From Salinivenus iranica (GTDB lineage: Bacteria; Bacteroidota; Rhodothermia; Rhodothermales; Salinibacteraceae), in the NCBI GenBank assembly GCA_002894665.1, contig NCRB01000005.1, positions 1 through 64,000 of the forward strand: a stretch of DNA of 64,000 nucleotides. The letters run 5' to 3'. The translations under genes and the position numbers were made by a program. Positions 38,745-43,998 of the stretch are shown here, piece by piece. A model generated the notes under the pieces. It searched no databases and was not told the origin of the DNA. It worked only from the letters and a program-made list of their open reading frames with translations. The first letter of the stretch is position 1. Every line of letters starts with the position of its first letter.

Positions 38745-38790
38745 GTTTGCTCAACCCAATGTGAGGGTTGCCACCCACCCTCTCCCTGCG

Positions 38791-39828
38791 ATGACTGAGT
38801 CCCCCGACCGGCCCGACGACTCCTGGTACCAGGACCAATGGGAGGACCTCATGGACCTCCTGTCGGTGTCGGAGCCGCAGGCGGTCGTGCCCCGGATGCG
38901 AACCCTGCAAACGGCACTCTCGCACTCTAACTTCAGTCGCTTTGAGGACGCCCTGCAGGCGATGAAGAGCATGGAGGCCCAGCTGGACGACCTCTACACC
39001 GAAAAAGCCTCCACCGCCCGGGCCGCCGCGGAGGAGGACGAACACGACCCGGATACGTACGAGCAGCTTCAGTTCCTCCTGGCCCGCGAGGACAAGCTGC
39101 AGCGGGCCCTCGGCGTACGCTCGCCCGATGCCGTCGTAGAGATGGTGGAAGGCCTGACCGACCAACTGGATGTGCTGTACGCCGAACGCGACGCCGACGC
39201 CCCCCCGTCCCCGGACGCCTTCCTCGACGGTTCTAACTCCCAATCTGAGCGGACGCAGGCGGAACTGGACGCCTCGGACCCCGACGCCGTTCTTGCGATG
39301 GTCCGCCGCCTTTCCGAACAGCTCGATGCGCTGTCTGCCGACCGAGAACAGCTGGCCGCGCACGGGATCGACGACCTCGACCATGCGCTCGAGCTGATCG
39401 ACCGTGTGGAGGACCAACTGGTGGATCTGTACGCCGAGCGCCGTCGTCACACGGTGGACGACCCGCTGCTCCCACCTCACACGCTCCACCGCCTCGACGA
39501 AATGGACGACGACGCCCTTGATGCCGTGCCGGCGGGCGCCCTCCGTGTGGACGACGACGGCATCATTCAACGCGCCAACCGCGCGGCCCTTCAGTGGCCC
39601 GGCTTCTCGGCCGATCGCACCGACGCCCTGGCCGGCCGCCCATTCGACGACCGCGCCGCGCCCGGATCCGATACCGCTCTGTTCCGCCGCTCCCCCGAGG
39701 ACGACGCCCCCGCCACCACCTGCTTCTTGTACACCTACGCAGGAGCGGACACTACCACGACCCTGCTTGTTCAACTGTACCACCCCCAGGATGCGTCCGG
39801 CGACTGGATTCTGTTTCGGCCGACGTAG
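38791..39828 (+). CDS. repeat/coiled-coil protein with chromophore-less PYP-like domain
   Basis: A 345-residue protein, start placed at the ATG at 38791 (a GTG at 38761 would add ten residues). About residues 45-218 hold four helical repeats of a 29-residue unit centred on QLDxLYAE(R/K), namely QLDDLYTEK, QLDVLYAER, QLDALSADR and QLVDLYAER. Residues 237-345 align along their whole length with the PYP encoded next door: LDAVPAGALRVDDDGIIQ against LNAVSFGIIRIDDDGVVQ, and GDWILFRP against NNWILVQK. The chromophore cysteine is replaced (APG292 for APC101) and the chromophore Glu is absent. It cannot be a normal PYP; a partner or output protein is inferred. Confidence 0.85.
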   Translation: MTESPDRPDDSWYQDQWEDLMDLLSVSEPQAVVPRMRTLQTALSHSNFSRFEDALQAMKSMEAQLDDLYTEKASTARAAAEEDEHDPDTYEQLQFLLAREDKLQRALGVRSPDAVVEMVEGLTDQLDVLYAERDADAPPSPDAFLDGSNSQSERTQAELDASDPDAVLAMVRRLSEQLDALSADREQLAAHGIDDLDHALELIDRVEDQLVDLYAERRRHTVDDPLLPPHTLHRLDEMDDDALDAVPAGALRVDDDGIIQRANRAALQWPGFSADRTDALAGRPFDDRAAPGSDTALFRRSPEDDAPATTCFLYTYAGADTTTTLLVQLYHPQDASGDWILFRPT

Positions 39829-39875: not shown

Positions 39876-40346
39876 GTGTCTGAGAACGACGCACAGCATA
39901 CGCCCGACGACGCCTCGGTCCTCGACTCGGATCCGGCGGAGTCGTCTGAGGAGCCCGCAGATGGCCTTTCCGCGGACGATCTGCAGTTTGAGGACGACGC
40001 TCTCGGCGAGAAGCTCCGGCACGTCCCCGAAGAGGAACTCAATGCCGTGTCGTTTGGCATCATTCGGATTGATGACGACGGGGTCGTGCAGTTTTTCAAC
40101 GACTATGAGTCCAAACTGAGCGGCGTCCCCCCGGAGGAAGCCATCGACCGCAACTTCTTTACGCAGGTGGCCCCGTGTACGAACAACCGCCTGTTTTGGG
40201 GCCGCTTTAAGCGAGGGGTGCGGCGGGGCGACCTCGACGAGGTATTCACCTACACGTACACCTACAAGATGCGACCGACGCTCGTGGACGTGCACCTGTA
40301 TCGCGACGAGGCGGGCAACAATTGGATTCTGGTCCAGAAGTATTAA
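39876..40346 (+). CDS. pyp: photoactive yellow protein
   Basis: A blue-light photoreceptor of the PAS fold that binds p-coumaric acid by a thioester. The start is the GTG at 39876 (no in-frame ATG), giving 156 residues: an acidic N-terminal extension of about 31 residues, then the 125-residue PYP domain. Chromophore Cys101 (Cys69 of Halorhodospira halophila PYP) lies in NFFTQVAPCTNN, and Glu78 (Glu46) is kept. Tyr42 is replaced by Phe74, Thr50 by Ser82 and Arg52 by Val84. In Halorhodospira the Y42F mutant is blue-shifted with an extra intermediate form. The gene lies 47 bp after the PYP-like gene and 74 bp before the ligase gene. Confidence 0.95.
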   Translation: MSENDAQHTPDDASVLDSDPAESSEEPADGLSADDLQFEDDALGEKLRHVPEEELNAVSFGIIRIDDDGVVQFFNDYESKLSGVPPEEAIDRNFFTQVAPCTNNRLFWGRFKRGVRRGDLDEVFTYTYTYKMRPTLVDVHLYRDEAGNNWILVQKY

Positions 40347-40397
40347 CGTGTCGGTGTCGCTCGCGCACGGTGCGCCGCGCACGGTACTTTTTTCTGT

Positions 40398-40420: not shown

Positions 40421-41971
40421 ATGCGGATGAACGGCACCTCGGACTCGTCGGAGTCGACCGGCCTTCCCCAGACGTCGGATGCCCCCGACGCCGTGGCGGC
40501 CGTCCGAGCGGCCCTGGATCAGTGCCCCCCGCCCACGTCCACACCGGCCCCCGCCTCGCCCAACCCCTGGCACGACCTGCTCCACGACCGCCTCTGCGAC
40601 GAGCCGCTCCCGGCCCTCATCGCGGACGACACCATCACCCCGGCCGCCTCCCTCTGGACGGGCTCCCGCCTCTGGGTCGATACGTTCCGCGCACACGACC
40701 TGCAGCCGGGCGACCGGCTCGTCCTCAGCCTTCCGCCCTCCACAGCCTTCGTTCAGATCCTCGTCGCCGCGCTCTGGGAGCAGCTGACGGTGGCGTTCGC
40801 CCCGCCGGACACGGACGCCGAGTCTCTTCTCTCTCCGCTCGACGCCCGCGCCGCGGTGACGCCCGACGACGGGCCCCACGCCTGGGCCTCCGACGAGCTC
40901 GCCGGTCCGCGCTCCACCCCCGAGGCCCTGCGGTCCCCCCGAGAAGAACCGACCCCTGACGTCCGCTTCCTGCTCCGGACCTCCGGCACCCACCACGGAC
41001 GCTGGGTCGCCCTCTCGGACCGCAACGTGCTCTCCGTGCTGGCCAGTCACCTGCCGCACCTCGCGCTCCGCAACGCCCGGGTGCTCTCCGTTCTTCCCTG
41101 GACCCACGCCTTCGGGCTGGTCCTCGACCTCCTGCCCGCCCTTCTGGCAGACGCCGAACTGATCCGGGACCCCGACGGGGGACGCAACCCTGACGGACTG
41201 GTGTCCCTGCGGGACGCCTGGGGCACCACGCACCTGTCGGCCGTCCCCCTCACCATCCAGCGCCTGCTCGACCACTCGGCGGGCCGGGCCCTCGTGCGCG
41301 ACCTGCAGGGCGGGATTGTAGGCGGCGCGCCGGTATCTGCCCCCCTCGCCACCACCCTCACCGACACCGCACTGCGGGCCGGGTACGGACAAACGGAAGC
41401 CTCGCCCGGCATTGCCCTTGGGGCGCGCGGCGAGTGGGGCCCCCACTACCTGGGACACCCGGTCGGCTGCAACGTCACGATTGCGGACGACGGAGAACTG
41501 CTGTTTGACGGCCCAAATGCCTGCGTGGGCTACTGGCGCGACGGCCGCCTCGAACGCCTCGACCCGACCCGCACGGTCCATACGGGGGATCTGGTGGAGC
41601 ACGGTGACGACGGCCTTATCTTTCGGGGGCGGAAGGACGCGTCCTTCAAACTCTCCAACGGCCGCTTCGTCCCGGCCGGCGTCCTGGAGTCGACCCTCAA
41701 GACGACGTACGCCACCCTTCGCGATGCGCTGCTCTTCACCCCCGACGGCGACAACGTCGCAGTCGCCCTCTGTCCCCAGTCGCCCACCGCCGAGGTGCCC
41801 GACCTGGACGCCCTCCGAGCAACCCTTGGCTCGCTTGGCAGCCGCCTCGTCTGGCACACCACGGTGGCCCCGGAGGCCTGGCAGACGCAGTCCAAGGGCA
41901 CCGTCGACCGCCGCGCGATGAGTGCCTCTTTGTCGGAGGCCTACCGCTCCAAAACTCCTTCGTCGCCCTAG
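40421..41971 (+). CDS. AMP-forming ligase, candidate p-coumarate:CoA ligase
   Basis: A 516-residue member of the adenylate-forming family, start at the ATG at 40421 (a second ATG at 40427). The phosphate loop is atypical (TSGTHHGRW at 187-195, without the usual Gly-x-Pro-Lys). The other core motifs are clear: YGQTE (322-326), TGD (388-390), GRKD (403-406) and the catalytic Lys492 in SKGTVDRR. A variable ~45-residue Pro/Ser-rich N-terminus precedes the domain. In other PYP-bearing bacteria a p-coumarate:CoA ligase activates the chromophore. Position between pyp and an ammonia-lyase supports that role here, though substrate specificity cannot be read from sequence. Confidence 0.82.
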   Translation: MRMNGTSDSSESTGLPQTSDAPDAVAAVRAALDQCPPPTSTPAPASPNPWHDLLHDRLCDEPLPALIADDTITPAASLWTGSRLWVDTFRAHDLQPGDRLVLSLPPSTAFVQILVAALWEQLTVAFAPPDTDAESLLSPLDARAAVTPDDGPHAWASDELAGPRSTPEALRSPREEPTPDVRFLLRTSGTHHGRWVALSDRNVLSVLASHLPHLALRNARVLSVLPWTHAFGLVLDLLPALLADAELIRDPDGGRNPDGLVSLRDAWGTTHLSAVPLTIQRLLDHSAGRALVRDLQGGIVGGAPVSAPLATTLTDTALRAGYGQTEASPGIALGARGEWGPHYLGHPVGCNVTIADDGELLFDGPNACVGYWRDGRLERLDPTRTVHTGDLVEHGDDGLIFRGRKDASFKLSNGRFVPAGVLESTLKTTYATLRDALLFTPDGDNVAVALCPQSPTAEVPDLDALRATLGSLGSRLVWHTTVAPEAWQTQSKGTVDRRAMSASLSEAYRSKTPSSP

Positions 41972-41980
41972 GTCGCCCTC

Positions 41981-43483
41981 ATGTCTGCCTCGCCCCTTCT
42001 CCTCGGCCCCGACGCCTCCCTCACCTGCGAAGCGGTCGACCGGGCCGCCCGCCGCCCAGCCCCGAAGGGGTCGCTCACGACCGCCGCGGACGAGGCCCTT
42101 CCGCGCTCGCGCGACGCCCTCGCCGACGTACACGAGCGTGGGGACGAGATCTACGGCCTCACGACCGGGTTCGGCCCCCTCCTCGACCACTCGGCCGCGG
42201 AGGACGCCTCCGCCCAGAGCGACCAGCTGCTCGCCCACCTGAGCACGGGGAGCGGGGAGTGGGCGGCGCCCGACATCGTGCGGGCGATGGTCCTGTCGCG
42301 CCTGCAGTCGCTGGCGCAGGGCCACTCCGGAATTCGTCCCTCGACCGTCCGGTCCCTCCTTCGTCTGCTGAACGCGGCGCCGCCGCCCGCCGTCCCCGAA
42401 ATCGGATCGCTCGGGGCAAGCGGCGACCTGACCCCGCTGGCCCACGCGGCCCGGGCGTACACCGGCCAGGGGCACATGCTGGCAGAGAACGGAACGCTCG
42501 TGGACGCCGCGACCGCCCTGCAGGACGCCGATCTCACGCCCGTCTCGCTCGACGCCCGCGACGCGCTTGCGTTCGTGAACGGCACCGCGTTTATGACGGG
42601 GACCGCCGCGCTGGCCCTCGCCCGGGGGCGCCGCCTGCTGGAGCGGGCCGAGGCCCTCACCGGATGGGCCTACCGCCTGCTCGGGTGCTCGCTGGAGGCC
42701 CTCGCACCGCGTCTCCACGCCGCCCGCGGCCACGACGGCCAGCAGGCAAGCGCCGCCGCCATCCGGGCGGAGGCAACCCGCCATGGGGCCGCCGAGCAGG
42801 ACGATCGCCCGCTCCAGGAAGTGTACTCCCTTCGCTGCGCCCCGCAGGTCCTCGGCGCCGCCCGAGATCAGTTTCGATACGCCCGGAATCAAGTTGAAAC
42901 AGAGCTGAACGGGGTGACCGACAACCCCGTGATCGATCCCGAGGGGCCCGCGGCCCTGCACGGCGGCAACTTTCAGGGGCAGCAGATCGCCTTTGCCGCC
43001 GATGCGCTGAACGAAGCCCTCACCCAGATCGGAGTGCTGGCCGAGCGTCAACTCGATGTCCTGCTCTCGCCCGACCAGAACGGAGGGGCGCCGCCCCTCC
43101 TCGCCTGGACGCCGGGCCCCACCAGCGGCCTCGCCGGCGCGCAGCTTACCGCCACGGCCCTGGTGGCCGAGCTCCGACAAAACGCACAAATGGCGGCCAC
43201 CTCGTCGATCCCGACCAACAACGACAATCAGGACGTCGTGTCGATGGGGGCCCTGGCCGCCCGCACGGCCCACGAACAAACCGAGCGCCTCGCCCCAATC
43301 CTGGCCGTCCTCGGCCTCAGCCTCGCCCAGCTCACCCACCTGCGGGCCGCCAACCGCGCCGACGGCCCCGCGCCTCCGCCCCCCGACTGGATGCCCTCCG
43401 TAGAGCCGATCGTGGAGGACCGGCCCCTCCGCGCCGAGATCAACGCCCTCGCCCAAGAGTGGCGCCTCCCCGCCCCCTCATAG
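41981..43483 (+). CDS. aromatic amino-acid ammonia-lyase, probable tyrosine ammonia-lyase
   Basis: Removes ammonia from an aromatic amino acid with the self-made MIO cofactor; for tyrosine the product is p-coumarate. The 500-residue protein has the MIO triad Ala146-Ser147-Gly148 in GSLGASGDLTPLAH, catalytic Tyr58 in YGLTTGFG and the family segment YSLRCAPQVLG. The selectivity pair is His86-Leu87 (LLAHLSTG), the combination found in tyrosine ammonia-lyases; histidine lyases have Ser-His and phenylalanine lyases Phe-Leu at this place. The ATG is nine bases after the ligase stop. No other histidine-degradation gene is nearby, arguing against HutH. Confidence 0.88.
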   Translation: MSASPLLLGPDASLTCEAVDRAARRPAPKGSLTTAADEALPRSRDALADVHERGDEIYGLTTGFGPLLDHSAAEDASAQSDQLLAHLSTGSGEWAAPDIVRAMVLSRLQSLAQGHSGIRPSTVRSLLRLLNAAPPPAVPEIGSLGASGDLTPLAHAARAYTGQGHMLAENGTLVDAATALQDADLTPVSLDARDALAFVNGTAFMTGTAALALARGRRLLERAEALTGWAYRLLGCSLEALAPRLHAARGHDGQQASAAAIRAEATRHGAAEQDDRPLQEVYSLRCAPQVLGAARDQFRYARNQVETELNGVTDNPVIDPEGPAALHGGNFQGQQIAFAADALNEALTQIGVLAERQLDVLLSPDQNGGAPPLLAWTPGPTSGLAGAQLTATALVAELRQNAQMAATSSIPTNNDNQDVVSMGALAARTAHEQTERLAPILAVLGLSLAQLTHLRAANRADGPAPPPPDWMPSVEPIVEDRPLRAEINALAQEWRLPAPS

Positions 43484-43497
43484 CCCAACCATCCGAC

Positions 43498-43998
43498 ATG
43501 CCATCGCCCACATCTCGTCCCGCCCCCGGCCCGAACCAGGAATCCGTGTGGGACTACCCGCGCCCGCCGGCCCTGAAGCCAGAGGAACGGCGCATCCGGG
43601 TCGTCTTCAACGATACGGTCCTCGCCGATACGACCGAGGCCCTGCGCGTGCTCGAAACGAGCCACCCGCCGGTCTACTACCTCCCGCCCGCCGACGTGGC
43701 GATGGAGCACCTTCAGCGGGAGTCGCGGACCTCAATGTGCGAGTTCAAGGGGCGCGCCGTGTACTACACGGCCACGGTCGGGGACCGCTCGGCCCGGCAG
43801 GCCGCATGGGGCTACCCAAACCCCACCGATCGCTATGCGGCCCTCGCGGATCACCTCGCCTTCTATCCCAGCAAAATGGACGCGTGCTTTGTGGGCGAGG
43901 AGCAGGCTCGCGCTCAGGAGGGCGACTTCTACGGCGGCTGGATTACCGACGACATCGTGGGCCCGTTTAAGGGCGGGGCGGGCACGATCGGCTGGTGA
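43498..43998 (+). CDS. DUF427 domain protein
   Basis: A 166-residue protein from the ATG at 43498, 14 bp after the lyase stop. It shows the DUF427 pattern: ESVWDYPRPP near the start, VVFNDTVLADTTEALRVLETSHPPVYYLP in the middle, then CEFKGRAVYYT and YPSKMDACFVGEE. The family is widespread, often one or two beta-barrel-like domains, and has no assigned activity. Its tight placement at the end of the PYP gene row suggests co-transcription with the photoreceptor genes. It converges with the trans-sulfuration gene, 15 bp away. Confidence 0.85.
   Translation: MPSPTSRPAPGPNQESVWDYPRPPALKPEERRIRVVFNDTVLADTTEALRVLETSHPPVYYLPPADVAMEHLQRESRTSMCEFKGRAVYYTATVGDRSARQAAWGYPNPTDRYAALADHLAFYPSKMDACFVGEEQARAQEGDFYGGWITDDIVGPFKGGAGTIGW

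Follow-up and report, generated by a model that had tools for sequence, protein, structure and literature searches.

The window analysed here is a 64,000-nucleotide stretch of Salinivenus iranica (contig NCRB01000005.1). It holds a gene for a helical-repeat protein with a dark PYP-like domain, which we named HPYP, followed after a gap of 47 bp by pyp. For the HPYP gene, an alternative GTG start at 38761 would give 355 aa; the ATG start (345 aa) was preferred because it agrees with the conserved N-terminus of the relatives. The features of the locus are the following:

38791-39828, + strand, HPYP gene, 345 aa, helical repeats followed by a C-terminal PYP-like domain (ORF and codon-usage gene call)
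38866-39441, + strand, five helical repeats, residues 26-217 (iterated repeat profile; helices and short loops in AlphaFold models)
39052-39201, + strand, most conserved repeat module, residues about 88-137, DTYEQLQFLLAREDKLQRALGVRSPDAVVEMVEGLTDQLDVLYAERDAD (invariant columns common to 11 type A proteins; recognisable in type B)
39466-39819, + strand, dark PYP-like domain, residues 226-343 (profile matches, AlphaFold2 model, Foldseek, alignment with PYP)
39574-39576, + strand, Ala262 codon, Tyr42 position (alignment)
39586-39588, + strand, Ala266 codon, position of the chromophore-bonding Glu46 (alignment)
39598-39600, + strand, Pro270 codon, Thr50 position (alignment)
39664-39666, + strand, Gly292 codon, position of the chromophore Cys69 (alignment)
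39876-40346, + strand, pyp, 156 aa, with Cys69 present, Phe at 42 and Ser at 50 (TIGR02373, E 8e-31)
40370-40395, + strand, terminator-like stem and T run, 3' of pyp (pattern scan only)
40427-41971, + strand, AMP-binding enzyme, likely p-coumarate:CoA ligase, pCL (PF00501, E 1e-20; adjoins pyp and TAL)
41981-43483, + strand, aromatic amino acid ammonia-lyase, likely TAL (PF00221, E 4e-134)
43546-43998, DUF427 gene, downstream of TAL

Given the terminator-like stem that the pattern scan placed after pyp, HPYP and pyp may form their own transcript. The window is very close to its counterpart in Salinivenus lutea, where HPYP is 97% identical (dS about 0.05-0.1) and evolves under purifying selection (omega 0.18).

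The sequence-only reading had proposed a chromophore-less PYP domain fused to helical repeats, and the comparisons bear this out. Residues 234-341 align with the neighbouring PYP at 29% identity over 116 columns (E 1e-9, as a single comparison), HPYP matches the TIGR02373 'photo_yellow' profile with E 2.4e-5 and 24.4 bits, and its domain matches solved PYPs with E 6e-4. The curated TIGR02373 cut-off of 143 bits is missed by HPYP and likewise by the adjacent true PYP (106.6 bits). When profiles were compared with each other, the dark-domain family matched PYP with a probability of 99.9% (E 1.2e-37). The AlphaFold2 model, built from 26 homologues, reached a pLDDT of about 80-88 across most of the dark domain. 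Its top 37 PDB matches in Foldseek were PYP structures or the Ppr PYP domain (best E 9e-8), and these matches gave a TM to target of 0.66-0.80. By this prediction, the domain almost certainly adopts the PYP/PAS alpha-beta fold rather than a non-PAS one. The earlier alignment of the last ~109 residues with PYP stands as homology; its boundaries, given as 237-345, move to about 226/234-343.

In PYP, Cys69 forms the thioester bond to p-coumaric acid. The window HPYP has Gly292 at this position, as had been read from the sequence, and the Glu that was said to be gone is replaced by Ala266 (Glu46 position); the alignment adds Ala262 for Tyr42, Pro270 for Thr50 and Asp320 for Met100. The residues that mark a chromophore-binding PYP (Cys69; Tyr42 or Phe, plus Glu46) are therefore absent from the window HPYP. 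The main alignment comprised 26 HPYPs, and Cys69, Tyr42, Thr/Ser50 and Met100 were each kept in none of them and Glu46 in one; Cys69, Glu46 and Met100 were all kept in 31 of its 31 PYPs. The 27th HPYP, the G519 copy from a third family of the order, has Ser at 69, hence Cys69 is found in 0 of 27 HPYPs. The scaffold positions Gly37, Phe62, Pro68, Phe75, Gly77, Phe92, Tyr94 and Trp119 are conserved at 92-100% in the HPYPs, and dN/dS of the dark domain is 0.05-0.19 where estimable. As judged from these sequences, HPYP is light-blind by design rather than by decay.

The pocket itself carries Ala, Leu or Val at 42, Gly, Ala, Ser or Asp at 69, mostly Ala at 46, and a nearly invariant HPYP-specific Pro50 (92%). 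Small or hydrophobic side chains now stand in place of its polar residues and Pro50 has become conserved; the cavity has thus been rebuilt, not simply lost. This is what would be seen if HPYP were a neofunctionalised sensor, with a PYP-like domain that forms homodimers or takes up a different small ligand and acts on its own, sharing the operon and perhaps the response with PYP without touching it. The variation at positions 42 and 69 is, however, unlike one conserved ligand site, and we consider such a sensor rather unlikely.

The N-terminal 225 residues of the window HPYP are made of helical repeats. The unit has roughly 30 residues and, from the iterated repeat profile, the consensus LGVSDPDEALEMVRSMEEQLEALYEEREA; it occurs five times in the window protein and up to 21 times in longer relatives, and the PYP-like domain is always single. 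In the AlphaFold models, the repeats appear as helices strung together by short loops, with pTM of 0.38 and 0.22 (the latter for the N-terminal model), values at which the helix packing is not confident. Searches of Pfam, NCBIfam and the PDB returned no convincing match for the repeats, just generic or weak coiled-coil similarity, and no recognised output domain (chemoreceptor/MCP, histidine kinase or GGDEF) was found in HPYP with Pfam and NCBIfam.

The relatives were surveyed by reading about 20 kb around each match, which resulted in 27 HPYPs of up to 1173 aa in 15 genomes from three families of the order. A search for the pair in other genomes, suggested by the sequence-only reading, was productive: in 22 of the 27 cases, distributed over 14 genomes, HPYP immediately precedes a pyp gene of the same strand. 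The gaps are mostly 22-271 bp; a single gap of 537 bp probably reflects a late start call for pyp. A single genome keeps up to three or four HPYP copies. Three HPYP genes (one in G012, two in G015) have no adjoining pyp, which speaks for a sensor that signals alone. In two genomes, a further and divergent HPYP (L036:10535-11605; L042:10058-11230) is encoded after pyp, which thus has a dark paralogue on either side. Longimonas has a second pyp with no HPYP beside it.

The Salinibacteraceae loci fall into two recurrent types. Type A usually lies beside a phosphosugar mutase gene, includes pCL and TAL, and encodes an HPYP of 345-560 aa. Type B encodes an HPYP of 760-1170 aa beside a small, divergently oriented gene, mostly together with an OmpR-type regulator; type B pairs of HPYP and pyp have no pCL or TAL alongside. 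In each of the two genomes of other families (G056 and G519), one pair is accompanied by pCL and/or TAL, a pattern suggestive of a single ancestral pair and a later duplication. Position 42 of PYP is Phe in type A loci and mostly Tyr in type B loci, and the two loci may accordingly differ in the tuning of colour or kinetics.

That type A loci also encode pyp, pCL and TAL would likewise suit a maturation or stability factor, a PYP-specific chaperone that keeps hold of apo-PYP or hands it to the p-coumaroyl-CoA pathway, and a protein resembling its client could capture folding intermediates. However, type B pairs have neither enzyme gene beside them, the S. ruber group has no dark domain, and in H. 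halophila, pyp, pCL and TAL suffice for holo-PYP (also stated in PMC12826048). We regard this role as improbable.

Several further arrangements were observed around the loci. Nearly every type A locus has a DUF427 gene after TAL (or pCL), including those that have lost pyp. Tandem pyp genes follow a long HPYP in L040, L041 and L045, and in L040 and L045 the tandem is followed by c39, a helical protein that has no PYP domain. In G009 (C13:79443-79648), fragments of a third pyp occupy two overlapping frames and probably represent a frameshifted copy. An unnamed, conserved gene of about 150 aa, c2, lies divergently beside type B pairs and adjoins TerC (L043:6293-6754; L149, G000 C64:22413-22829). 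We considered c2 as a component of the system; it may be a mere neighbour, as it persists where the HPYP-pyp pair is lost. A PAS histidine kinase gene adjoins type A pairs in three genomes, and a multi-PAS histidine kinase with an OmpR-type regulator lies between the type A and type B pairs in L041:6145-10829 and L040:3327-7838. The PAS histidine kinase or the OmpR-type regulator is a possible output of HPYP-pyp, as a weak lead. No chemoreceptor was recognised among the neighbours searched.

In the maximum-likelihood tree, the 25 Salinibacteraceae dark domains formed one clade (support 95/94), and all 26 dark domains can group as one clade (86/93) apart from the Salinibacteraceae PYPs and the PYPs of other phyla. 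The dark lineage is therefore old and arose probably once. A recent duplication of the adjacent pyp was rejected by this tree, which places the dark domain as an old sister lineage, and a pseudogene was rejected by dN/dS and intact frames. The earlier description of HPYP as a linked paralogue of PYP is borne out by the conserved pairing, and the dark domain is under purifying selection; the description needs qualifying in that the domain is no recent pyp copy and PYP persists without HPYP in the S. ruber group. In the window copy, the segment that follows Gly292 is shortened and the similarity to PYP is lower than in most other copies, as would be expected of a decaying, functionless pyp duplicate. 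Such decay is nevertheless very improbable for an old monophyletic family that is under purifying selection and keeps up to three or four copies per genome.

Across 245 genomes of the class, the repeats occurred together with PYP in 21, the repeats without PYP in none, and PYP without the repeats in three, although these counts are not phylogenetically independent. The absence of the repeats from every PYP-less genome argues against a sensor independent of PYP. A search of 395 genomes of the phylum found, outside the order, solo PYPs only, and no dark domain was found near PYP loci of other phyla among the loci returned by the PYP-alignment search. The mirror tree of HPYP against PYP gave r 0.43 (Mantel 3/5000); partner swaps within genomes were equal or better, the true pairing ranking 8 of 128, so that the correlation does not separate true from swapped partners and was given no weight.

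Losses were found at both loci. In the genome of the window, HPYP and pyp are both lost from locus B and the flanking genes are kept. The six S. ruber-group genomes have lost pyp, TAL and the dark domain from locus A, where a 97-aa, two-repeat gene remains between the phosphosugar mutase and pCL genes (L056:9474-9767, also in L052, L054, L058, L060 and L063; 73-99 aa). This gene is what remains of HPYP, and it is under purifying selection (omega 0.07-0.14). The remaining pyp of this group is at locus B, with no HPYP there. A remnant selected without the domain favours a scaffold in which the repeats are functional and the dark domain is a passive cap that just dimerises or positions the rod, and so does a repeat number that varies from 5 to 21 beside an unvaryingly single domain. 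Against it, the dark domain too evolves under purifying selection (omega 0.05-0.19) and is retained wherever HPYP adjoins pyp, and we judge a passive cap to be unlikely.

Because HPYP is co-inherited with pyp, its membership in the PYP pathway is well supported, and we consider it likely that HPYP acts there. Whether it is a dedicated partner, with the dark domain as the docking site for PYP and the rod as the output element, we put at an even chance, and a direct PYP-HPYP complex as the signal relay at even or a shade below. PAS domains commonly pair, like with like. A kept PYP scaffold with a lost pigment site is the expected look of the constitutive half of a hetero-photoreceptor. In the partner mechanism, HPYP and pyp would be co-expressed or co-transcribed, and light-activated PYP, or dark PYP that light releases, would dock on the dark domain via a PAS-PAS contact. 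Docking or release would alter the attached helix string, which would oligomerise or bind the next component. HPYP would then be the light-blind half of a hetero-photoreceptor, i.e., a signalling adaptor, a role that the sequence-only reading had put forward as a possibility alongside heterodimerisation with PYP.

We counted in favour of the partner reading the PYP fold, the loss of the chromophore residues on a kept scaffold with its own Pro50, the HPYP-pyp linkage, the clade, selection, co-occurrence, the joint loss at locus B and the selected remnant of the S. ruber group. Counted against it were PYP without a dark domain in the six S. ruber-group genomes, the second pyp of Longimonas standing alone and the three unpaired HPYPs; moreover, the joint loss at locus A could be a single contiguous deletion. 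The fuller proposal is that HPYP is a light-blind PYP partner of an undescribed kind, forming a light-dependent hetero-PAS complex with a repeat rod of variable length, and that the ancestral pair was duplicated into A (with Phe42 PYP) and B (mostly Tyr42) to give parallel light channels per cell. We hold it tentatively, at clearly less than an even chance.

Few photoreceptors have been studied as much as PYP, yet two surveys (PMC9664959, PMC12826048) treat the way in which its signal is passed on as an open gap. HPYP is a concrete candidate partner: it is encoded beside pyp, has a dark PYP fold, is selected, and has repeats that were met only in genomes with PYP. Culturable hosts are available in Salinivenus lutea and Longimonas halophila. 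In the usual model species, S. ruber, the dark domain has been lost naturally, and work on its PYP may have missed HPYP because the whole group lost the domain.

Among known systems, the PYP family TIGR02373, whose clade B includes Salinibacter and Leptospira (PMC9664959), shares the PAS subfamily and fold with HPYP, which is encoded with a true PYP, pCL and TAL. In contrast to these PYPs, HPYP lacks Cys69, Tyr42, Glu46 and Met100, carries the domain C-terminal to repeats and forms a separate clade. The same 2022 survey describes PYPs with a substituted Cys69, chiefly methylobacterial Ppr and a 'PYP_like' branch, which were proposed to be neofunctionalised. They have lost the chromophore cysteine, as has HPYP; however, by that description many of them are in phytochrome or histidine kinase proteins, whereas the HPYP domain is on a helical-repeat protein beside an intact PYP. 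The survey text further reports that chemoreceptors without a sensory domain adjoin Leptospira PYPs. These pairs, and Campylobacter CetA/CetB (PMC9664959), follow the same two-gene logic of a soluble PAS sensor and a neighbouring partner, although HPYP lacks an MCP signalling domain and any other known type of output domain.

The 2025 survey (PMC12826048), which covers Cys69-containing homologues only, includes multidomain fusions that, like HPYP, have a C-terminal PYP in a larger, largely helical protein, e.g., MCP-PYP. Its operon table lists GGDEF/EAL, HK, pCL, TAL and BLUF partners and no HPYP-like one. In the main-text passages of the two surveys that were compared, no dark PYP on a helical-repeat protein beside pyp is described. 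Compared with these systems, HPYP represents a PYP-family PAS domain turned putative partner and encoded beside pyp.
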